DNA of 34,731 bases, taken from assembly GCA_030430675.1 (NCBI GenBank), contig JAUIKU010000022.1, forward strand, positions 1 to 34,731, given 5' to 3'. Below are positions 9,594-17,832 of the stretch, one piece after another. This DNA comes from Bacteroidia bacterium (GTDB lineage: Bacteria; Bacteroidota; Bacteroidia; Cytophagales; Cyclobacteriaceae). The notes under the pieces were generated by a model. That model was given only the letters and a program-made list of their open reading frames with translations. It searched no databases and had not been told where the DNA came from. The first letter of the stretch is position 1. Each line of letters opens with the position of its first letter. The position numbers and the translations under genes are program-made.

Positions 9594-9650
9594 TTTATAA
9601 ATTCTGAATTTAACTGATCTTAACCGGTATTAAATTATATATAGGATAAT

Positions 9651-9682
9651 TTTGTCCGACTTAATAAAAGTGGCTATCTTTA
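9651..9682 (+). promoter_or_regulatory. Bacteroidota-type promoter of the Rrf2 gene
   Basis: TTTG (9651-9654) and TATCTTTA (9675-9682) are separated by 20 bases, which fits the -33/-7 architecture closely, with one mismatch in the last base of the -7 box. Transcription would start near 9689, leaving a leader of only about 11 bases before the ATG at 9700. The TTTTGTCC overlapping the -33 box could also be part of an autoregulatory site. Confidence 0.5.
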
Positions 9683-9699
9683 CTGCAAAACAACACACT

Positions 9700-10134
9700 A
9701 TGTTTTCAAAAGCCTGCGAATATGCCATTCGGGCCACCATATATGTGGCTATGCGATCACTTCAGGACCAATGCACCAACCTGAAGGCATTAGCGGAGGA
9801 AATTGGGTCTCCGGTAGCCTTCACAGCTAAAATCATGCAGCAATTGGTAAAGCACAATATTGTGTATTCGGTAATGGGGCCCACTGGTGGGTTCCAGATA
9901 GAGAAACGAAGGGTCCACAAGATAAAATTAAGCATGATTGTAAATGCCATCGATGGCGATGCCATATATCAAGGTTGTGGCCTGGGGTTAGAAGCTTGTA
10001 ACGCACTTGAGCCCTGCCCGGTGCACGATAAATTTGCCAAAATACGGGATGACCTAAAGCAAATGCTGGAAACTACCAGCATCTACGAACTGGCTACAGG
10101 ACTGGAGGTTGGCATGACATACTTAAAGAGGTAA
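9700..10134 (+). CDS. Rrf2-family Fe-S transcriptional regulator
   Basis: A 144-residue winged-helix regulator. The ATG at 9700 gives the typical start MFSKACEYAIRATIYVA; an upstream in-frame TTG at 9652 lies inside the promoter and is rejected. The recognition helix region (LKALAEEIGSPVAFTAKIMQ) and the wing (GPTGGFQIEK) are standard for Rrf2. Three cysteines at 93, 100 and 106 form C-X6-C-X5-C in the cluster loop, one residue longer in the first gap than the C-X5-C-X5-C of IscR and NsrR, so an Fe-S cluster is expected. It sits directly before an operon rich in NO-related proteins, which favours an NsrR-like role sensing NO or oxygen, but IscR-like Fe-S control cannot be excluded. Confidence 0.87.
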   Translation: MFSKACEYAIRATIYVAMRSLQDQCTNLKALAEEIGSPVAFTAKIMQQLVKHNIVYSVMGPTGGFQIEKRRVHKIKLSMIVNAIDGDAIYQGCGLGLEACNALEPCPVHDKFAKIRDDLKQMLETTSIYELATGLEVGMTYLKR

Positions 10135-10180
10135 ATTTTTATCTACATATAAGACAAAAAGATCCTAAACTCTTTGATAA

Positions 10181-11998
10181 GTGATTTTAAAACGATTAAT
10201 ACTACTTCTTTTCCTAGTAACCCCCGTAAGCTTAGCCGCCCAGGCCCGTGTTGTTGATACCGAAGATTGGTGGCTTAGCCCGGGGGTATTAGGGACTCTG
10301 GTCTTGGTGGTCCTGGTATTGGCCATTGCTGTTCTTATTATTATTAGCCGGTTGAATAACTATATCAACCAATTGAATCACAAAAAACAGCTGAGACAAA
10401 AACTTGCTTTCAGCCAGTATCTGGTCAACCTGGACCAGGGTGAAATTGACCTAATTCTGGAAGAACGCAAACGGGCCCTGAAATACAAACTCAGTGGTAC
10501 CGAGCTAGGCGCTGATGGAGGTGCGGTAGATGAGCGGGGGTTGATTCAAAATGTTACCGATGAACCCGATAACCCTATAGTCGATGAGAAAAAGCGGGTT
10601 GCCGAATCGCTGGAAACACCACCCGCTCTTAAAAAGCTGATTATTTTCTATCTGGGTGCGGCTGTGTTCTGGTTGATATTTGGCACCACAGTGGGTCAGT
10701 ATCTCGGTATGAAATTCATCTGGCCTGAACTGGACAGCATTTCCTGGCTTTCTTTCGGTCGTTTGCGCCCGGTTCATACCAATGCGGTATTCTGGGGTTG
10801 GGCCTCTCTGGCCATGTTTGGACTGGGTTACTTTGTAATTACCCGCACCAATAACACTAACATTTATAATCCCAAATTGGGATGGTACGCCCTGGTATTG
10901 ATCAATCTTGCAGTGTTAACAGGCACGCTTTGTCTGATGGGAGGCATCAATAACGGAGGTGCAGAATACCGCGAATATACCTGGCCGGTGATGGGGCTTT
11001 TCGCAATGGGGCTCATCACCAACTTCTGGAATTTTTATAAGACTATTGCCAATCGCAGGATCTCAGAAATATACATTTCCAACTGGTACATTTTGGGCGC
11101 TTTGCTCTGGACCATGGTGCTGGTGATCATTGGATATTTGCCCTTTTACCAGAATGGTTTAGGTGAAACCGTGATCCAGGGATACTACATGCACCAGGGT
11201 GTGGGCATGTGGTTTATGACATTTACCCTGGGTCTGATCTACTATTATCTGCCCTCAAGCCTCAACAAACCGATCTATTCTTATTCATTGGGTGTACTGG
11301 CTTTTTGGACACAGATGCTGTTTTATACCATGATAGGAACACACCATTTTGTTTTCAGTCCCCTACCCTGGTGGCTGCAAACGGTGGCCATTGTCTTCAG
11401 TGCCGGGATGTTCATTCCAGTGGTGGCGGGTACCACCAATTTCCTGTTGACCATGAAAGGCAGCTTTCATCAAATTTCTAAAAGTTACGTTCTGCCTTTC
11501 TTTCTGGTGGGGGTGGTATTTTACTTTGTTGGCTCTACCCAAGGCAGCTTTCAGGCATTCCGCTTTACCAATTACATCTGGCATTTTACTGATTTTAATG
11601 TGGCTCATTCACATATGACCATGTACGGTATTATCACATTCATGCTATGGGCTTGCATTTATGCCCTACTACCCCGGATCACCGGTAAGGAACCACACCA
11701 GCTCTTGGTGGGGGCTCATTTCTGGCTGGCCTTTATCGGTTTGTTCGCCTACATGATTTCCCTGATGGCTGGTGGCACTCTTAAAGGATTGGGTTGGGTG
11801 GAAGGTCTGCCTTTCATCGAATCGGTGGTTATGATGAAACAATATTGGGTGTCTCGGGCTATCGGTGGCAGCCTCATGTTTCTCTCCCACCTGCTTTTCG
11901 CTTATAACTTTTACCTGATGGTCAGGCCAAAGACCACCGACTTAAACACCGAAGTGAAATACGGGTCTGGTCTAAAGGAAACACCGGCATATGCTTAA
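10181..11998 (+). CDS. Divergent CcoN-like heme-copper oxidase catalytic subunit with N-terminal extension
   Basis: A 605-residue membrane protein starting at GTG 10181 (signal-like MILKRLILLLFLV). Residues 1-150 are an extension not found in ordinary CcoN (about 475 residues): one extra helix (35-57) and a charged linker. The C-family oxidase core follows, with FGRLRPVHTNAV (H199, low-spin haem), H338 (CuB), the cross-linking tyrosine equivalent Y382 exactly 44 residues after H338 as in cbb3 oxidases, GTHH (H388, H389, CuB) and AHSH (H476, H478, high- and low-spin haem). The cbb3 glutamate in the STFEGPM region is replaced by GSTQGSFQ, and the helix X context AHSHMTMYG resembles NorB. It reduces O2, or possibly NO, at the inner membrane. 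It overlaps the next gene by 8 bases. Confidence 0.85.
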   Translation: MILKRLILLLFLVTPVSLAAQARVVDTEDWWLSPGVLGTLVLVVLVLAIAVLIIISRLNNYINQLNHKKQLRQKLAFSQYLVNLDQGEIDLILEERKRALKYKLSGTELGADGGAVDERGLIQNVTDEPDNPIVDEKKRVAESLETPPALKKLIIFYLGAAVFWLIFGTTVGQYLGMKFIWPELDSISWLSFGRLRPVHTNAVFWGWASLAMFGLGYFVITRTNNTNIYNPKLGWYALVLINLAVLTGTLCLMGGINNGGAEYREYTWPVMGLFAMGLITNFWNFYKTIANRRISEIYISNWYILGALLWTMVLVIIGYLPFYQNGLGETVIQGYYMHQGVGMWFMTFTLGLIYYYLPSSLNKPIYSYSLGVLAFWTQMLFYTMIGTHHFVFSPLPWWLQTVAIVFSAGMFIPVVAGTTNFLLTMKGSFHQISKSYVLPFFLVGVVFYFVGSTQGSFQAFRFTNYIWHFTDFNVAHSHMTMYGIITFMLWACIYALLPRITGKEPHQLLVGAHFWLAFIGLFAYMISLMAGGTLKGLGWVEGLPFIESVVMMKQYWVSRAIGGSLMFLSHLLFAYNFYLMVRPKTTDLNTEVKYGSGLKETPAYA

Positions 11999-12998
11999 CC
12001 TTCATACAGACCATAGAAGTTTAGTTACCATCTCCTTGCTGGGGTTCCTGATACTCAGCCTGGGGGTAGCAGTTTTACCCGCCTACCAATCACAGAATAA
12101 TACGGAACCCCTACCCCAAATGGAGCCTATGAGTGAAGCGGAAATACGGGGACTCCGCATTTTCATCCGGGAGGGATGCGTGGCCTGCCATACTCAGCAG
12201 GTACGAAACATAGAAATGGACCAAACCTGGGGCAGCAGGCCGTCGATCCCCTCTGACTATTATTACAGTAAGCAACGTATGGGGTTTTGGCAACAATCGC
12301 CCTCCGTGCTGGGGAGCGAACGCACCGGCCCGGATCTGACCAACGCCGGAATGCGTCAACCAAGTATAGACTGGCATTTGTTGCACCTCTACAATCCCCG
12401 CATAGTGGTTCCCGAATCCATCATGCCCTCCTACCCCTGGTTATTTGAAGATAAGATCAACCCGGCAAAGGAAGAAAAAACATTGACCATACCAGCGGAA
12501 TTCAAGGAACAGGGAGTCGAAATTGTTCCCAGGCGGGCAGCCCTGGATTTGGTGGCCTATCTGCAATCGCTCAAACAGGCTCCCCTTGCCAGCCAACAGC
12601 CAGAATTCATACAATCCACCCACAAGAAATTGGAAGCCTCCCAGAACTCCGTTAACCAGGACCTGCCATCTTTACCAGATGGTAAGAATCTTTACCTGGC
12701 CACTTGTTCGGCCTGTCACCAGGCAGATGGATCTGGTGTGCCGGGAGCATTTCCTGCATTAGCTGGAAGTGCGGTAATAAACAATCAGGATCCGCAAATG
12801 CTCATACGAATTGTTTTGCAGGGTTATGACGCCCGCCCCGATTTTGCACAAATGCCGGGGTTCGCCGATCAACTGAGCGATGAGGAAATCGCCGCCATTA
12901 TCAATTATGAACGCAGTAGCTGGGATAACAATGCCCCTGCGGTTACTGTGTATGATGTAAAAAATATCAGAGAAAGTATTATGAATCAAACCCCCTAA
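11991..12998 (+). CDS. CcoO-like cytochrome c subunit fused to a second cytochrome c domain
   Basis: A 335-residue membrane-anchored dihaem protein. A single N-terminal helix (about residues 10-32) is followed by a CcoO-like domain: REGCVACHTQQVR (C63, C66, H67), SERTGPDLTNAG and VVPESIMPSY (axial M145), all characteristic of CcoO. After a linker, residues about 228-310 form a separate class I cytochrome c with CSACH (C239, C242, H243) and AQMPGF (axial M288). The protein would take electrons from the periplasmic pool and pass them to the CcoN-like subunit. A normal cbb3 operon would also have a dihaem CcoP; here the extra haem domain is attached to CcoO instead. The gene overlaps the oxidase gene and abuts the next small gene by 2 bases. 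Confidence 0.88.
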   Translation: MLNLHTDHRSLVTISLLGFLILSLGVAVLPAYQSQNNTEPLPQMEPMSEAEIRGLRIFIREGCVACHTQQVRNIEMDQTWGSRPSIPSDYYYSKQRMGFWQQSPSVLGSERTGPDLTNAGMRQPSIDWHLLHLYNPRIVVPESIMPSYPWLFEDKINPAKEEKTLTIPAEFKEQGVEIVPRRAALDLVAYLQSLKQAPLASQQPEFIQSTHKKLEASQNSVNQDLPSLPDGKNLYLATCSACHQADGSGVPGAFPALAGSAVINNQDPQMLIRIVLQGYDARPDFAQMPGFADQLSDEEIAAIINYERSSWDNNAPAVTVYDVKNIRESIMNQTP

Positions 12999-13000
12999 AT

Positions 13001-13237
13001 ATGGAAAACCCAGAAAATTATTTACCCAGTTTAATTACCGAAACACCCATGGAGGGCCGGGAACTAGCCATTAAATTGGCCAGGAAATCCATAGCGGCTA
13101 TTCAAACCGATGGCGAAGTGAGGAAAAGGCTCAGGGACAATTATGCCAATGATACCAAGCAGTTGATCGCTTCCGCCCAGGTAATTGCTACCGAATTTCA
13201 AACTATTGCTGCTGCAAACAACTACTGGAAGGAATGA
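13001..13237 (+). CDS. Small hypothetical protein (78 residues)
   Basis: A short soluble, mostly helical protein (ELAIKLARKSIAAIQ and a helix around residues 52-72) with no signal peptide, membrane helix, cysteine or recognised motif. It is placed between the cytochrome subunit (2-base gap) and the next gene (4-base overlap ATGA), so translation is coupled and the gene is likely genuine. A role as an assembly or accessory factor of the oxidase is inferred only from position. Confidence 0.55.
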   Translation: MENPENYLPSLITETPMEGRELAIKLARKSIAAIQTDGEVRKRLRDNYANDTKQLIASAQVIATEFQTIAAANNYWKE

Positions 13238-13527
13238 AGAAAATCAGCCTTGTAATAGTATGCTATCTAGCTAGCACTGCCAGGTCCTGGGCCTGTAAAC
13301 TTTGCAGTAAAAATCAGCCTGAACCGTTGCAAAACATCACGCACGGAGCAGGTCCGCAGAGTGACTGGGATTATCTGATCATTATCGTGGGCATTATTAT
13401 TGTTTCTGTTACACTTTTTTACAGTCTCAGACTCCTGATCAGGCCAGGAGAAAAAGTCTCCGGCCACATCAAGAACATTGTGGTAAATGAAGGACGAATG
13501 TTCAAACAACCCGGCCAAGCTGTGTGA
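13234..13527 (+). CDS. Small single-helix membrane protein with periplasmic CxxC
   Basis: A 97-residue protein. The N-terminus is a signal-like segment (MKKISLVIVCYLAS) followed by ACKLCSKNQPEP, a CxxC pair that would face the periplasm. A strong membrane helix lies at about residues 45-67 (YLIIIVGIIIVSVTLFYSL), and the last 25 residues are basic and probably cytoplasmic. No family was recognised. It could be a small subunit in the manner of CcoQ, or a metal or thiol factor for haem/copper insertion. Start overlaps the preceding stop codon by 4 bases, which supports co-translation in the oxidase operon. Confidence 0.6.
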   Translation: MKKISLVIVCYLASTARSWACKLCSKNQPEPLQNITHGAGPQSDWDYLIIIVGIIIVSVTLFYSLRLLIRPGEKVSGHIKNIVVNEGRMFKQPGQAV

Positions 13528-13550
13528 TGCTGGCCCTGTAAATAACCACC

Positions 13551-14003
13551 ATGACAGTAACTAGAAAAATAGCTGAATGCATAGAAAACAGTCGAACCGT
13601 CAAAGTTTACCTGGACGATGAAAAACAGCCCTTTGCTGAGTTTCGGCCACCGGTAAAGTTTGTTTTGGATACCACCAAAATACCAGATGGTAAACACCGG
13701 CTTAAGATAGTGGCCAAATCCTCCAATAACCTGGAAGGCATAAAAGAAATACCCTTTGAGGTACGCAATGGGCCGGAAATAACTGTAGTGGGACTAAAGC
13801 CCAACGAAGTGGTGGAAGACCAGCTGGCACTTACGCTTAATGCCTATGGCAGTGAAACCAGAGGTGAATTTGTGGTGACCGGTTCTGAGACACCAAAAGG
13901 CATACCGGCCTGGGTCTGGGCCATGGTGATTGCCTTTATTGGATTTGCTCTTTTTTATTTTATCATGTATTCCACACAAGAATTCTATAATTCCTTTTTC
14001 TAA
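13551..14003 (+). CDS. Accessory protein with Ig-like domain and C-terminal membrane anchor
   Basis: A 150-residue protein. Residues about 15-75 have the strand pattern of an Ig-like fold (VKVYLDDEKQPFAEF, then TTKIPDGKHRLKIVAKS), followed by a linker with further strands and a single C-terminal helix at about 118-138 (PAWVWAMVIAFIGFALFYFI). There is no N-terminal signal peptide, so topology is not obvious. The Pro-Ala-Trp entry to the helix is reminiscent of the helix of CcoP, but no haem motif is present. It sits between the small membrane protein and the haemoglobin gene, sharing one base with the latter. A structural oxidase subunit is the most economical guess. Confidence 0.6.
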   Translation: MTVTRKIAECIENSRTVKVYLDDEKQPFAEFRPPVKFVLDTTKIPDGKHRLKIVAKSSNNLEGIKEIPFEVRNGPEITVVGLKPNEVVEDQLALTLNAYGSETRGEFVVTGSETPKGIPAWVWAMVIAFIGFALFYFIMYSTQEFYNSFF

Positions 14004-14398
14004 TGGAAAACCAACAAGATATCGAACAACTGGACCATATCAGGCTTATGGTAGACAGCTTCTACAGCAAAGTGCGGGAAGATGAATTGCTGGCACCTGT
14101 TTTCAATCAACGAATCGCTGACAAATGGCCTCAGCACCTGGAAAAAATGTATCGCTTCTGGCAGACGGTATTACTGGGTGACCATACCTATTTTGGCAGC
14201 CCCTTCCTACCCCATGCCAAATTGCCTGTTGATAAAATTCATTTTGACCGCTGGCTGGAGTTGTTTAATGATACTATTGATGAACACTTCCAGGGAGAAA
14301 AAGCCCGGGAAGCCCGATGGCGCGCCGAAAAAATGGCTGAAATGTTCTATCACAAAATTCAGTACAACCGAAATAACCCTTCAAAAACACTACTATGA
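14003..14398 (+). CDS. Group III truncated haemoglobin
   Basis: A 131-residue cytoplasmic globin of the 2/2 type. The family pattern is clear: VDSFYSKVREDELLAPVFN (Tyr B10 at 21, Phe CD1 at 34), RFWQTVLLGDHTYFGSP, then PHAKLPVDKIHFDRWLELF, where H71 is the likely proximal haem ligand and W84 the G8 tryptophan. Members such as Campylobacter Ctb bind O2 and NO and are induced by nitrosative stress. Its place between oxidase subunits and the RIC gene, with a 1-base overlap upstream and a 4-base overlap downstream, argues for NO or O2 handling in the same response. Confidence 0.9.
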   Translation: MENQQDIEQLDHIRLMVDSFYSKVREDELLAPVFNQRIADKWPQHLEKMYRFWQTVLLGDHTYFGSPFLPHAKLPVDKIHFDRWLELFNDTIDEHFQGEKAREARWRAEKMAEMFYHKIQYNRNNPSKTLL

Positions 14399-14835
14399 GT
14401 AAACCCGATAATAATACCGAGGTTGCCGTCTGGGATACTTTCGTCTACAAAGCAGATGGCAGTGTGATGCATTTTGACATTTTGGTACCAACCCATGTTA
14501 ATGATAAGCAGAAGATTTTCAGATACGGAAAAGATTATGTCAAAAGTAAAGGAGAAACATCGGCAGCAATAGATACATCCCATTGCCAATTCTGTCACGT
14601 GGAATCACCTGGTGCCGAAGTAGAACACGCCATCTCAAAACAGGGCCACTATATTCTGGAAATGGAAGACATTCCCCGGGAACTTCCTATGGACCCTACC
14701 CGTAGGGACATGGTTCTGTACCTGAAGGCACACTTTGAAAAATACCGGTTTGCCAATTTTTCAGGGGTTGGCTCAGAAGAATTACGACATCTGTTACAGG
14801 TGGAGCAACAAACCAGGAATGGCACCTCAAAGTAA
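14395..14835 (+). CDS. DUF2024 family protein with C-terminal extension
   Basis: A 146-residue soluble protein. Residues 10-90 match DUF2024 (EVAVWDTFVYKADGSVMHFDILVP, then a CQFCH motif near residues 64-68 and GHYILEME). DUF2024 proteins are usually under 100 residues; this one has about 50 extra residues (MDPTRRDMVLYLKAHFEKYRF and onward) that look helical. The CxxCH sequence resembles a haem c site, but there is no signal peptide, so metal binding in the cytoplasm is more likely. Function of the family is unknown. The gene overlaps the globin stop codon and is 22 bases before the RIC gene. Confidence 0.8.
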   Translation: MSKPDNNTEVAVWDTFVYKADGSVMHFDILVPTHVNDKQKIFRYGKDYVKSKGETSAAIDTSHCQFCHVESPGAEVEHAISKQGHYILEMEDIPRELPMDPTRRDMVLYLKAHFEKYRFANFSGVGSEELRHLLQVEQQTRNGTSK

Positions 14836-14857
14836 TTAACAAACAAAGTATAATGTC

Positions 14858-15583
14858 ATGAACAATTTAATAGATAAAACAATTGGTGAAATAGTAGCGG
14901 AAGATTATCGGGCTGCCACTGTTTTTCAACAGCATGGTATAGATTTTTGCTGTAATGGCCACCGAAATTTTTCAGAGGTCTGTTCCAACAAGAGCATTGA
15001 CCCGGAGGAGCTGGTAGAACAGATAGACCTGGCTAAACAAGAAGTGACAGGAAATATGCCGGAGTTTAAGTTCTGGCCACTGGACCTGTTAATAGATTAC
15101 ATAGAAAAGAAACACCACCGCTATGTGGAAAGCAAAATACCTGTCCTGAAGGAGTACCTCCAAAAGATATCTCACAAACATGGAGCGCAACACCCCGAAC
15201 TGTTGCAAATAGCCAGACTATTCGATTTTTCAGCAGGTGAACTAACGGCTCATATGAAAAAGGAAGAGTTCATTTTATTTCCCCATATCAGAAAAATGGT
15301 CAAAGCTGAATCTAGCAGTTTACCACTGGCATCACCTCAGTTTGGCACGGTGGTGAGTCCTATCCAGGCCATGATGCAGGAACATGATAATGAAGGGAGA
15401 AGGTTTTACGAAATCAACCAGCTAAGCAATCATTATTTGCCACCCGAGGATGCTTGTAACACTTACCAGGTCACTTATCATTCCTTGAGAGAGTTTGAAA
15501 ATGACTTGCATCTTCACATCCACCTGGAAAACAACATTTTATTTCCCAGGGCAATTGAGATGGAAAAAGCACTAAACCTATGA
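14858..15583 (+). CDS. ric: RIC/ScdA/YtfE-type iron-sulfur cluster repair di-iron protein
   Basis: A 241-residue cytoplasmic protein with the two-part RIC architecture. The ScdA_N domain includes TVFQQHGIDFCCNGH with the vicinal cysteines C31-C32. The hemerythrin-like four-helix domain from about residue 72 carries the di-iron ligands: KKHHRYV (H86/H87), H132 with KKEEF acidic residues, FPHIR (H143), QEHDNEG (H176), and HIHLENNILFP near the end. RIC proteins restore Fe-S clusters damaged by NO or peroxide, and expression is commonly controlled by NO-sensing regulators. Length agrees with the family. Its stop overlaps the next hemerythrin-like gene by 4 bases. Confidence 0.93.
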   Translation: MNNLIDKTIGEIVAEDYRAATVFQQHGIDFCCNGHRNFSEVCSNKSIDPEELVEQIDLAKQEVTGNMPEFKFWPLDLLIDYIEKKHHRYVESKIPVLKEYLQKISHKHGAQHPELLQIARLFDFSAGELTAHMKKEEFILFPHIRKMVKAESSSLPLASPQFGTVVSPIQAMMQEHDNEGRRFYEINQLSNHYLPPEDACNTYQVTYHSLREFENDLHLHIHLENNILFPRAIEMEKALNL

Positions 15584-16038
15584 ACAGCCCCATAAAACGA
15601 CACCAGTCCCTGCAGCCGCTTAGTCGTGAGCATCATCACAGCTTGCTGCTCTGCTGGAAAATACGTGCCGGGTTTATAAAAGAAGTGGATGTAAACCGGA
15701 TCAAACGCTATGCCGACTGGTTCTTCAATACACATATTGAACCGCATTTTGAGGCTGAGGAAAAGTTTATTTTTCCCATCCTGGGCATGGATGATGATTT
15801 GGTTAAAAAGGCCACTGCTCAGCACAGACGGCTTTTCAGGTTATTTACTAACACCGACGAAATTGAAAAATCATTGAGTCTGATAGAAGAGGAACTGGAG
15901 CAACATATTCGTTTTGAAGAACGCGTGTTGTTCAATAAAATACAGCAGATAGCCAGTGCCGGGCAGCTAGAGGTATTTAATAACCATCATACCGAACATA
16001 AATTCCGGGAAAACACCGAAGATGAGTTCTGGAAATAG
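15580..16038 (+). CDS. Hemerythrin (HHE) domain protein
   Basis: A 152-residue four-helix protein of the HHE cation-binding type. Candidate iron ligands are EHHHSLL (H18-H20), HIEPHFEAEEKFIFP (histidine plus glutamates), AQHRRLF and LEQHIRFEERVLF. There is no signal peptide, so it is cytoplasmic. It starts inside the stop codon of the RIC gene (ATGA overlap), so the two are co-translated. Relatives bind O2, NO or store iron; as a partner of RIC it may supply iron or scavenge NO. It appears to be the last gene of the oxidase/NO operon, since a 312-base gap follows. Confidence 0.85.
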   Translation: MNSPIKRHQSLQPLSREHHHSLLLCWKIRAGFIKEVDVNRIKRYADWFFNTHIEPHFEAEEKFIFPILGMDDDLVKKATAQHRRLFRLFTNTDEIEKSLSLIEEELEQHIRFEERVLFNKIQQIASAGQLEVFNNHHTEHKFRENTEDEFWK

Positions 16039-16350: not shown

Positions 16351-17088
16351 ATGAAATTTGAAACCGGGCACCGAAGATGGGTGAAAATTTCACACTGGGT
16401 GGTAACCATTAGTTTCCTGCTATTGGCTTTTACCGGTTTTGAAATTCTAATGGTTCATCCCCGTTTGTATTGGGGTGAAGCCGGTAATGATCTGATGCCC
16501 GCTCTCCTGGAATTACCCATCAGCAGAAACCATAAGCACGAAGGCTGGGGCCAGCAAACCGCTTTTTTTGAATCTCCTGATTCACCGGTTAGCGCACCCC
16601 GCACCGTGACGATTTTCAATCAAAATGGCTGGGGTCGTAGCCTGCACTTCCTGGCTGGCTGGATACTGGTGGCTACTGGCACTATTTACCTTTTGTTCGG
16701 ATTTTTCACCGGTCATTTCCGCCATAATATCTGGCCCAAATTGAAAGAATTGTCCCCGAAAATACTCTGGCAGGAGCTCCTGCTACATTTTCGTATGAAG
16801 ATCCATCCTGCCACCAATGGCCCAATTTATAATGTCCTACAGAAGATTGCCTATATGTCTGTTATCTTCTTTTTCCTGCCACTTACCATTATTACAGGGT
16901 TTACTATGGCACCAGCAATTACTGCGGCATACCCGTTCCTGATGGATCTTTTCGGGGGGTATCAGTCTGCGCGCACCATCCATTTCTTTTCATCTGCGGT
17001 ACTGGAGGTATTTCTAATTGTACATATTATTATGATCATTAAATCGGGTTTTAAGCAACAGATTCGTTTTATGACCCTAGGCAAATAA
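16351..17088 (+). CDS. Membrane cytochrome b (cytochrome b561/Ni-hydrogenase b type)
   Basis: A 245-residue membrane protein with four helices (about 14-33, 96-119, 165-187, 209-231). Histidines on these helices, H15, H99, H211 and H225, can ligate two b haems, as in the PF01292 family that serves as quinone-linked subunit of periplasmic oxidoreductases. A polar loop of about 60 residues lies between helices 1 and 2. It is followed after 3 bases by a molybdopterin oxidoreductase gene, so the pair probably moves electrons between the periplasmic molybdenum site and the quinone pool. Direction of flow cannot be told. Confidence 0.85.
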   Translation: MKFETGHRRWVKISHWVVTISFLLLAFTGFEILMVHPRLYWGEAGNDLMPALLELPISRNHKHEGWGQQTAFFESPDSPVSAPRTVTIFNQNGWGRSLHFLAGWILVATGTIYLLFGFFTGHFRHNIWPKLKELSPKILWQELLLHFRMKIHPATNGPIYNVLQKIAYMSVIFFFLPLTIITGFTMAPAITAAYPFLMDLFGGYQSARTIHFFSSAVLEVFLIVHIIMIIKSGFKQQIRFMTLGK

Positions 17089-17091
17089 ATT

Positions 17092-17832
17092 ATGAAGGGA
17101 AAAGAGTACTTAACCAGACGACAGGCGATTACCACTGGCCTGGCTTCCATGGGCGCGTTGCTGTTCTCAAGATGTTCCACGGAGTTGCCTCCCACCTATG
17201 GCAATCTATTGCGGGCCGGTGATGTGCTGACCTATGCATCACACCGGGCGTTATTGCCCAAACAATCCTTAGCCAGGGAGTATCAGCTGGCCGATATTAC
17301 GTCCTTTCCTGCTACCGGCACCACCAACCCGGTGGATAAAAACAACAGTTATAGTGAAGAATACGACCGTCTGCAAAAAAAGGGGTTCAAGGACTGGCGG
17401 TTGTCAATTGAGGGTCAGGTAAAAAATCCGGGGATCTACTCCCTGTCAGATTTGCAACAATTTCCCTCCCGTACTCAGATCACCCGCCATACCTGTGAAG
17501 AAGGATGGACCGCCATTGGTGAGTGGACCGGCGTACCCCTGGGGACTATTCTGGAACAGTGCGGCATCATGCCAAATGCCCGGTTTGTCAATTATTACAC
17601 CTATGATGGGTTTGATGACAGCATTGACCTGATGGATGCCTTCCATCCTCAAACGTTGATTGCCTACGGGATGAACGGGAAAGATTTACCAGTGCCTCAT
17701 GGTGCACCGGTCAGGCTGCGGGTGGAAAAACAGATTGGTTACAAAAGCGCGAAATATTTGCGAAAGATAGTGGTCACAGACGAGTTTACTGAAATGCTCA
17801 GCCCCGGCTGGGCCTGGTACACCGGCATCTAG
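17092..17832 (+). CDS. Periplasmic molybdopterin-dependent oxidoreductase (sulfite oxidase fold)
   Basis: A 246-residue protein with a twin-arginine signal (LTRRQAITTGLASMGALL, R9-R10), so the folded cofactor-loaded enzyme is exported. The oxidoreductase molybdopterin domain (PF00174) spans about 95-240. RHTCEEGWTAIGEWTGVPL supplies the cysteine ligand to molybdenum (C135), and later motifs such as YYTYDGFDDSIDLMDA and GAPVRLRVEKQIGYKSAKYL are typical for the fold. The family includes sulfite dehydrogenases and MsrP-type methionine sulfoxide reductases. Its partner here is a PF01292-type cytochrome b, not an MsrQ-type subunit, so the MsrPQ assignment is not supported. Substrate is undetermined. 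Confidence 0.87.
   Translation: MKGKEYLTRRQAITTGLASMGALLFSRCSTELPPTYGNLLRAGDVLTYASHRALLPKQSLAREYQLADITSFPATGTTNPVDKNNSYSEEYDRLQKKGFKDWRLSIEGQVKNPGIYSLSDLQQFPSRTQITRHTCEEGWTAIGEWTGVPLGTILEQCGIMPNARFVNYYTYDGFDDSIDLMDAFHPQTLIAYGMNGKDLPVPHGAPVRLRVEKQIGYKSAKYLRKIVVTDEFTEMLSPGWAWYTGI

Follow-up and report, generated by a model that had tools for sequence, protein, structure and literature searches.

The contig JAUIKU010000022.1 of a Bacteroidia bacterium from the family Cyclobacteriaceae, analysed over its 34,731 nucleotides (nt; 'the window' below), harbours nine same-strand genes between positions 10181 and 16038, directly after the gene of an Rrf2-family regulator. The first of the nine codes for a divergent CcoN-like oxidase subunit I. 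We consider it somewhat better than an even bet (roughly 0.55) that this operon encodes a non-canonical C-family terminal oxidase together with a stress-protection set, under the control of a repressor of the Rrf2 family that reads an iron-sulphur (Fe-S) cluster. According to our sequence comparisons, the CcoN-like protein is a supported, patchily distributed side branch of the C-family (cbb3) in Bacteroidota, hereafter the clade. A 22-bp palindrome found upstream of CcoN in most loci of the clade, which is a new observation of this analysis, represents a putative operator bound by Rrf2. The clade comes with a predicted Rrf2 regulon of small size, which the gene neighbours and operator targets connect with stress by nitrogen oxides and Fe-S damage, and its oxidase would most likely keep electrons flowing under such stress.

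The original prediction described nine packed genes with gaps of at most 23 bases and an Rrf2 gene in front, and all ten open reading frames (ORFs) are present in the ORF listing of the window. From the CcoN-like to the hemerythrin (Hr) gene, the spacings are -8, +2, -4, +23, -1, -4, +22 and -4 bases, negative values being overlaps. Two of the three small proteins left as unknown can now be named, as a hexameric tyrosine-coordinated haem protein (HTHP) and a haem-less CcoP-like protein (P6), and the third (P5) is perhaps CcoQ-like. The remaining gene names are backed by Pfam or NCBIfam families (COX1, FixO, Cytochrom_C, Bac_globin, DUF2024, RIC, Hemerythrin and Rrf2). The globin is closest to group III, with an E-value of 1.4e-15 for Protein Data Bank (PDB) entry 2ig3 vs 0.0033 for the next match, 1ux8.

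The gene arrangement goes beyond chance, since it recurs in 80 loci. These are the best 80 of 464 stretches from a GTDB pattern scan that encode a CcoN-like relative (E up to 1e-3), possibly not all of them clade members; the 80 are all Bacteroidota by title, and with the window they make 81. Counting same-strand neighbours within 6 kb (tblastn, E up to 1e-5), we found CcoO in 80 loci, P6 in 79, P5 in 76, Rrf2 in 63, the globin in 53, RIC in 37, Hr in 33, HTHP in 32 and DUF2024 in 5. CcoO, P5 and P6 all accompany CcoN in 76 of the 80; among the other four, L082 ends inside CcoO, and P5 was found in three by a looser search (E up to 1e-3). RIC, globin or Hr genes are nearby in 49 of the 58 loci that have 6 kb on both flanks. 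For twenty further clade loci, one of which is also among the 80, the counts are globin 14, Rrf2 10, RIC 6, HTHP 6 and Hr 5. The CcoN, CcoO, globin and Rrf2 genes are still together in L132, the clade locus with the lowest score in the phylum sample. In contrast, 20 canonical CcoN loci of clade-bearing genomes, 4 of which extend for under 6 kb to one side, contain no globin, RIC, Hr, HTHP, P5 or P6 genes and only three Rrf2 genes. For the globin alone, 53/80 vs 0/20 corresponds to a Fisher p of 2e-8, relatedness being ignored. Whether the same neighbours occur in other genomes had been put forward as a check of the original prediction, and the neighbourhood proved to be conserved.

Other recurrent neighbours, defined as clusters present in at least 8 of the 81 loci, are a seemingly membrane-spanning protein of 149 amino acids (aa; 28), cupins (22 and 10), a ferredoxin (15) and a tryptophan-dioxygenase-like haem protein (12). 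Extending the flanks up to 10 kb revealed genes for qNOR-like proteins in 5, NosZ in 4 and NirK in 2 of the 80 clade loci, vs 0, 1 and 1, respectively, of the 20 canonical loci.

Close relatives of the CcoN-like protein were found in 15 of 194 genomes of the order, with best matches of at least 658 bits. The next best match drops to 205 bits, and such matches are mostly open frames of 700-790 aa of the CcoNO fusion type. In the phylum, 13 of 395 genomes carry the protein at E-values up to 1e-100, and a scan of viral contigs confirmed no relative. The window protein scores 240 bits against the ccoN model TIGR00780, under its cut-off of 583 bits. In a 74-row tree, a branch with 99% support in the Shimodaira-Hasegawa-like approximate likelihood ratio test (SH-aLRT) sets the 44 clade rows apart, and the 16 canonical CcoN are on a different side. 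This tree has long branches that meet, and it does not resolve the branching order of the nitric oxide (NO) reductases (NOR), CcoN and the clade. A 48-row tree that includes six CcoN from beta- and alpha-proteobacterial plasmids gave support values of 99/99 for the clade, 100/100 for a beta-proteobacterial group and 100/100 for the splitting off of cNOR and qNOR, again with long branches meeting. With the midpoint root used for drawing, the clade falls with C-family CcoN, apart from NOR.

The active site is oxidase-like. The CuB-ligand His (338, 388 and 389), the haem-ligand His (199, 476 and 478), the helix-VII Tyr382 (Y251 of P. stutzeri), Tyr354, Asn420 and Tyr448 are conserved in 101/101 clade rows. 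The two positions of the NOR glutamates are never Glu in these rows but Gly and Met/Thr, the Gly occupying the helix-VI FeB Glu position throughout. The references in the alignment, 2/2 cNOR and 4/4 qNOR, have the Glu and lack the helix-VII Tyr. With the oxidase Tyr kept and the NOR glutamates absent, these residues leave NO reduction possible but do not point to it. The clade has substitutions at Gly371 (101/101), Ala374 (100/101) and Gln454 (101/101), vs Ser, His and Glu in 16/16 canonical Bacteroidota CcoN. These positions correspond to S240, H243 and E323 of P. stutzeri, which we take to lie in or near a proton path, although a literature search gave no confirming paper. Two candidate signatures were discarded. 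The E323Q change cannot serve as a mark of NO chemistry, as it also occurs in beta-proteobacterial relatives without NO-related neighbours, and the H243 change is not special either, both canonical alpha-proteobacterial CcoN examined having Ser there.

Compared with canonical cbb3 CcoNOQP enzymes (the CcoNO fusion of Bacteroidota and 3mk7 of P. stutzeri), the clade shares the COX1 family, the CuB and haem His and the helix-VII Tyr, as well as most polar residues counted as K-channel and the mono-haem CcoO domain. It differs by its low sequence identity with CcoNO-type proteins (29-33%), the changes of S240 to G, H243 to A and E323 to Q, the lack of a di-haem CcoP, a di-haem CcoO fusion, an extra N-terminal segment of CcoN, and the operator and operon with HTHP, globin and RIC. 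As read from the sequence, the extra segment is a signal or transmembrane (TM) segment followed by a soluble linker that precedes the COX1 domain (residues 153-564). In loci L010 (1144 onward) and L014 (1159 onward), this TM-plus-linker segment appears to occur twice in a single open frame.

The CcoO-cytochrome c proteins have two CXXCH motifs in 101/101 orthologues. Their FixO domain corresponds to the mono-haem CcoO expected of the C-family, to which an extra cytochrome c domain is fused. A di-haem CcoP was not found, as the P6 orthologues have no CXXCH in 92/99 loci and one in 7/99. In the latter seven (L125-L131, from other classes of the phylum), they are 271-281 aa long with a haem-c motif, and that of L125 has a Pfam cytochrome c match. 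Because of these orthologues and of a weak match to FixP_N (16.9 bits, E 0.005, below the 24.9 cut-off), P6 appears to be a CcoP-like subunit whose haem domain has been lost. The AlphaFold2 model of P6 has a predicted local distance difference test (pLDDT) score of 63 overall, with a well-predicted helix at residues 120-141. P5 has no family match in Pfam or NCBIfam, and its single TM segment and gene position suggest that it is perhaps CcoQ-like. A CxxC motif is present in 88/95 of its orthologues and missing from 7/95, and the P5 proteins of L125 and L131, whose P6 retains cytochrome c, lack the CxxC...THG motif. We infer from sequence both that P5 and P6 are oxidase subunits and what the substrate of the enzyme is.

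We then considered the regulation of these genes. The Rrf2 protein most likely starts at ATG 9700 rather than TTG 9652, because the operator at 9640-9661 overlaps the TTG. Counted from this ATG, Cys93, Cys100, Cys106 and His109 are each shared by 90% or more of the 75 linked Rrf2 homologues, a Cys3-His pattern that we take to be that of IscR. The regulator is likely to be a sensor based on an Fe-S cluster. Its best PDB matches are IscR (E 1e-4), and it remains below the cut-offs of both the IscR model TIGR02010 (58.7 bits vs 207.55) and the NsrR model NF008240 (30.1 bits vs 182). The original prediction invoked NsrR-like Rrf2 proteins; by the curated model the regulator is not an NsrR, and its Cys3-His pattern resembles that of IscR. 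NO as its signal would be deduced from the targets.

A palindrome with the consensus TTTCGGATAAATTTGTCCGAAA is common to the regions upstream of the 64 Rrf2 genes that are linked to these loci. It is present with up to 8 mismatches out of 22 in 59 of the 64 regions vs 5 of 64 shuffled ones, mostly approximately 40 nt before the start codon, a comparison that is partly circular as the consensus derives from the same sequences. With a leave-one-out matrix that excludes the tested locus, a 12-bit threshold and 900 bp upstream of CcoN, the 22-bp site was found in 71/81 loci vs 0/81 after shuffling, and 31/81 loci have at least two sites. It is retained in 13 of the 20 loci that have no Rrf2 gene within 1.5 kb, 6 of those 13 being from Gelidibacter. 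Over the 1.59 Mb of the 80 loci and the window, 139 positions reach 12 bits vs 15 in shuffled sequences, and the 0.37 Mb of canonical loci contain 3. Besides Rrf2 and CcoN, these sites precede, among others, RIC genes in 5 loci, cupin genes in 9 loci (10 sites) and a globin gene in one.

Across the whole genome of the window, exactly three sites match the 18-bp core with no more than 2 mismatches; they are located in the window and on contigs C263 and C299. The C299 site precedes a hemerythrin-like frame of 72 aa (below cut-off), a 242-aa protein, a second DUF2024 protein and a protein with a weak thioredoxin match. We restricted the analysis to hits with no more than 2 mismatches and rejected those with 3, which do not exceed a reversed-pattern control in this genome (12 vs 18); in five others, the numbers are 13/11, 11/1, 2/7, 7/17 and 3/3 (hits/control). 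Genome G164 has a further site (18.5 bits) before the gene of a RIC-like hemerythrin-domain protein and that of a 382-aa protein without a Pfam match. An NnrS label for the 373-382 aa membrane proteins encoded near RIC-like genes was dropped, as they have no Pfam match. In genome G091, 2-mismatch hits (C31) and 3-mismatch hits (C25) are located inside genes with no evident NO link.

The C263 site lies 29 bp before the gene of a 419-aa protein (L196:1573-2832, minus strand), with an unrelated-looking gene approximately 250 bp away on the other side. The protein shares 29% identity with one of 407 aa encoded in locus L044, for which the model is of good quality (pLDDT 87.5, predicted TM-score 0.88). 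The best fold matches of that model are cbb3 CcoN and cNOR subunits (Foldseek E 2e-8 and 5e-6), and it aligns with 8smr_E over 400 residues (Z 35.1, root-mean-square deviation 3.4). A profile search of the family against PDB sequences yielded nothing useful, so that fold comparison alone was informative. The family (approximately 405-445 aa; relatives in L044, L047, L048, L050, L083, L089, L096 and L113) has five invariant His but no invariant His-His pair. It therefore probably represents a haem-copper oxidase fold without CuB, as judged from the model. In several loci, its genes are neighbours of RIC or Rrf2 genes, and three loci have them in one open frame with a cytochrome c.

The genetic potential for denitrification was also examined. 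The genome of the window (4.96 Mb, 368 contigs) codes for a 486-aa NirK (C67, L214:8484-9944; 356.6 bits, cut-off 296.3) and for a clade II NosZ (C185, L215:13089-14351) that runs off its contig end and covers 351/578 positions (541.9 bits, cut-off 625). It has three COX1 proteins at E-values up to 0.001, namely one of A-family type (C95), that of the window and a canonical CcoN (C278). None groups with cNOR or qNOR, and no NOR was thus recognized among the COX1 proteins of this 368-contig assembly. This absence is meaningful, because the same search detects cNOR- and qNOR-like proteins elsewhere at approximately 180-215 bits. Nevertheless, the clade occurs in 4/64 genomes with NirK vs 9/331 without (p 0.24), and at least 17 of the other 63 NirK-bearing genomes have only A-family or CcoNO-type hits (E up to 1e-20, hand-sorted by score and frame length). 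With no NirK enrichment, and NirK without a recognized NOR being common, we rejected the idea that the clade generally supplies a missing NOR; such a role is possible in single genomes, not as a rule. In a hand-chosen sample of 26 genomes with and 46 without the clade, NirK above cut-off was found in 6 vs 3 (p 0.06) and NosZ in 16, one partial and below cut-off, vs 16 (p 0.047), to which we give little weight as the clade-less genomes were picked by family. At G456:C4:72878-74161 and G426:C16:79471-80832, a haem-copper protein of 580-584 aa is found near NirK. The one in G456 does not group with cNOR or qNOR in the 74-row tree, where it has a long branch, and is possibly another type of NOR.

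Based on these analyses, NO or another agent that destroys Fe-S clusters would hit the cluster of Rrf2, which would leave the palindromes before its own gene and before the CcoN operon. The cell would then make an oxidase composed of CcoN, CcoO-cytochrome c, P5 and P6, which would receive its electrons via the pair of c-haems in the CcoO fusion, there being no di-haem CcoP. The globin, HTHP and hemerythrin proteins produced with it could bind NO or O2, and RIC would repair Fe-S clusters. The oxidase would sustain respiration while NO is around, mainly by reducing O2, with the reduction of NO to N2O as a possible side activity. The NO-handling reading of the original prediction stands insofar as the neighbourhood is conserved and linked to genes for NO and Fe-S stress and to a shared operator. 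Its suggestion that the oxidase itself may act on NO found no support in the oxidase-like active site, the lack of significant NirK enrichment and the qNOR-like genes flanking 5/80 loci.

Several observations weigh against a stress oxidase that responds to NO. The IscR-like Cys3-His pattern and an NsrR score far below the cut-off mean that the signal may be Fe-S or iron status and not NO. RIC is within 6 kb in only 37/80 loci, 10/81 loci have no operator, and the beta-proteobacterial relatives with E323Q adjoin SCO and msrAB genes or a molybdopterin oxidoreductase gene rather than NO genes. We see some chance, well short of that of the stress oxidase, for a micro-oxic or Fe-S/iron-status oxidase without NO specificity, in which the globin, HTHP and hemerythrins would serve O2 delivery or deal with peroxide. 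The conserved Cys3-His and the IscR structures as best matches of Rrf2 are consistent with it, and so is 2ig3 as the nearest globin structure, which we take to be Campylobacter Ctb, discussed for supplying O2 to cbb3. Peroxide electrocatalysis has been reported for HTHP (PMC4813847). Nitrogen-oxide stress is favoured instead by RIC genes beside the operon or behind an operator of their own, and by the qNOR-like, NosZ and NirK genes near some loci.

A dedicated reductase of NO to N2O, which would take over the NOR step in those Bacteroidota that have nir and nosZ and lack nor, appears unlikely. The window genome, with its NirK, its NosZ cut by the contig end and no COX1 protein that groups with cNOR or qNOR, would fit it, as would the linked Fe-S repair, globin and hemerythrin genes. 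A 2025 survey (PMC12569097) gives 9% of the Bacteroidota with denitrification genes as nir+ nosZ+ nor-. Nevertheless, Gly and Met/Thr at the FeB Glu positions and a retained oxidase Tyr (101/101), the distribution of the clade with respect to NirK (4/64 vs 9/331), at least 17 other NirK-bearing genomes that share the NOR gap without the clade, qNOR-like genes in the flanks of 5/80 loci and its grouping with CcoN rather than NOR (100/100 split, midpoint root) all argue against it. We regard as rather doubtful the broader proposal of a separate C-family lineage that evolved into a CuB-type NO reductase, or into an NO-tolerant enzyme reducing both O2 and NO. Such a lineage would have subunits of its own, its Rrf2 regulon would include the CuB-less oxidase-fold protein, and it would fill the NO step in nir+ nosZ+ nor- Bacteroidota. 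As for an ordinary duplicate cbb3 oxidase with chance neighbours, subunits I and II do have cbb3 homologues of known structure. However, the separate supported clade with its specific residues, the 0/20 canonical loci with such neighbours and the conserved operator make this very improbable. If the stress-oxidase reading is true, a stress regulon includes some Bacteroidota cbb3-type genes that are now taken for plain micro-oxic oxidases, which bears on respiration under NO and on how nir+ nosZ+ nor- bacteria remove NO. Direct and cheap tests are available through the clade, its operator and the small regulon.

Our literature search identified no description of this operon or subunit set, in agreement with the original prediction, which was not aware of a C-family oxidase of such composition; a mention in Murali et al. 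2024, on the haem-copper oxidase and NOR families, is possible. The closest non-canonical relatives are the beta-proteobacterial CcoN (L236-L238) of the Azoarcus pAZKH, Cupriavidus CH34 and Paraburkholderia pBN2 plasmids, with 31-35% identity and 263-278 bits, vs 226 and 239 bits that this search gave for canonical CcoN from S. meliloti and Jiella. All three share Gln454 (the E323 position) with the clade but not Gly371, S240 being kept, and they form a separate group (100/100). Like the clade, Azoarcus and Paraburkholderia have CcoN followed by CcoO and one cytochrome c, with no CcoP. Globin, RIC, HTHP and Rrf2 are not annotated alongside in these two clusters, for which the PLSDB tables are incomplete. 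On a conjugative plasmid of Jiella pelagia (L240), genes annotated as a group III globin and the NO-inducible flavohemoprotein hmpA are directly upstream of ccoN and ccoO. Unlike the clade, Jiella CcoN retains both S240 and E323, and in the tree it belongs with the canonical CcoN. The cNOR and qNOR enzymes belong to the same superfamily as the clade, which differs from them by the lack of Glu at the two NOR positions, the presence of the Tyr and its place in the tree.

With respect to regulation, the clade resembles NsrR regulons, in which an Rrf2-family regulator governs NO-repair genes and a respiratory oxidase; Rodionov et al. 2005 (PMC1274295) describe such regulons with dnrN (RIC), nnrS and norB, and with the alternative oxidase Aox in V. 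fischeri. The Rrf2 protein of the window differs from NsrR by its score below the model cut-off. The enzymes of the cbb3 type are able to reduce NO (Forte 2001, as cited in PMC12816887), and that study, which deals with SAR11, raises NO reduction by cbb3 oxidases next to nirK as a possibility, on similarly indirect grounds.

Table. Genes and putative operators of the CcoN locus in the window.
Feature	Position	Strand	Remarks
Operator 1 (putative)	9640..9661	+	Palindrome TATAGGATAATTTTGTCCGACT; ends 38 nt upstream of the ATG of Rrf2; 20.7 bits (window left out of the matrix)
Rrf2-family regulator, 144 aa	9700..10134	+	Rrf2 82.3 bits, above cut-off
Operator 2 (putative, weak)	10148..10169	+	TATAAGACAAAAAGATCCTAAA; 11 nt before the CcoN start; 12.4 bits
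Divergent CcoN-like subunit I, 605 aa, GTG start	10181..11998	+	COX1 269 bits
CcoO with a fused second cytochrome c domain, 335 aa	11991..12998	+	Two CXXCH; FixO 111 bits (cut-off 29.6), Cytochrom_C
HTHP, 78 aa	13001..13237	+	PF11534 120.7 bits (cut-off 25); PDB 2oyy E 4.6e-20
P5, 97 aa	13234..13527	+	Signal peptide, CxxC...THGxGP, one TM, HIK tail; putative CcoQ-like position
P6, 150 aa, CcoP-like without haem	13551..14003	+	Strand-rich domain, then FixP_N-like TM helix
Group III truncated haemoglobin	14003..14398	+	Bac_globin; PDB 2ig3 E 1.4e-15
DUF2024 protein, 146 aa	14395..14835	+	PF09630 100 bits
RIC (YtfE/ScdA/DnrN), di-iron Fe-S repair protein	14858..15583	+	TIGR03652 236.9 bits (cut-off 204.7)
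Hemerythrin-domain protein, 152 aa	15580..16038	+	PF01814 41.5 bits, above cut-off

Lastly, genes for a cytochrome b561 and a molybdopterin-binding oxidoreductase are found at positions 16351-17832 of the window, approximately 310 bases past the operon.

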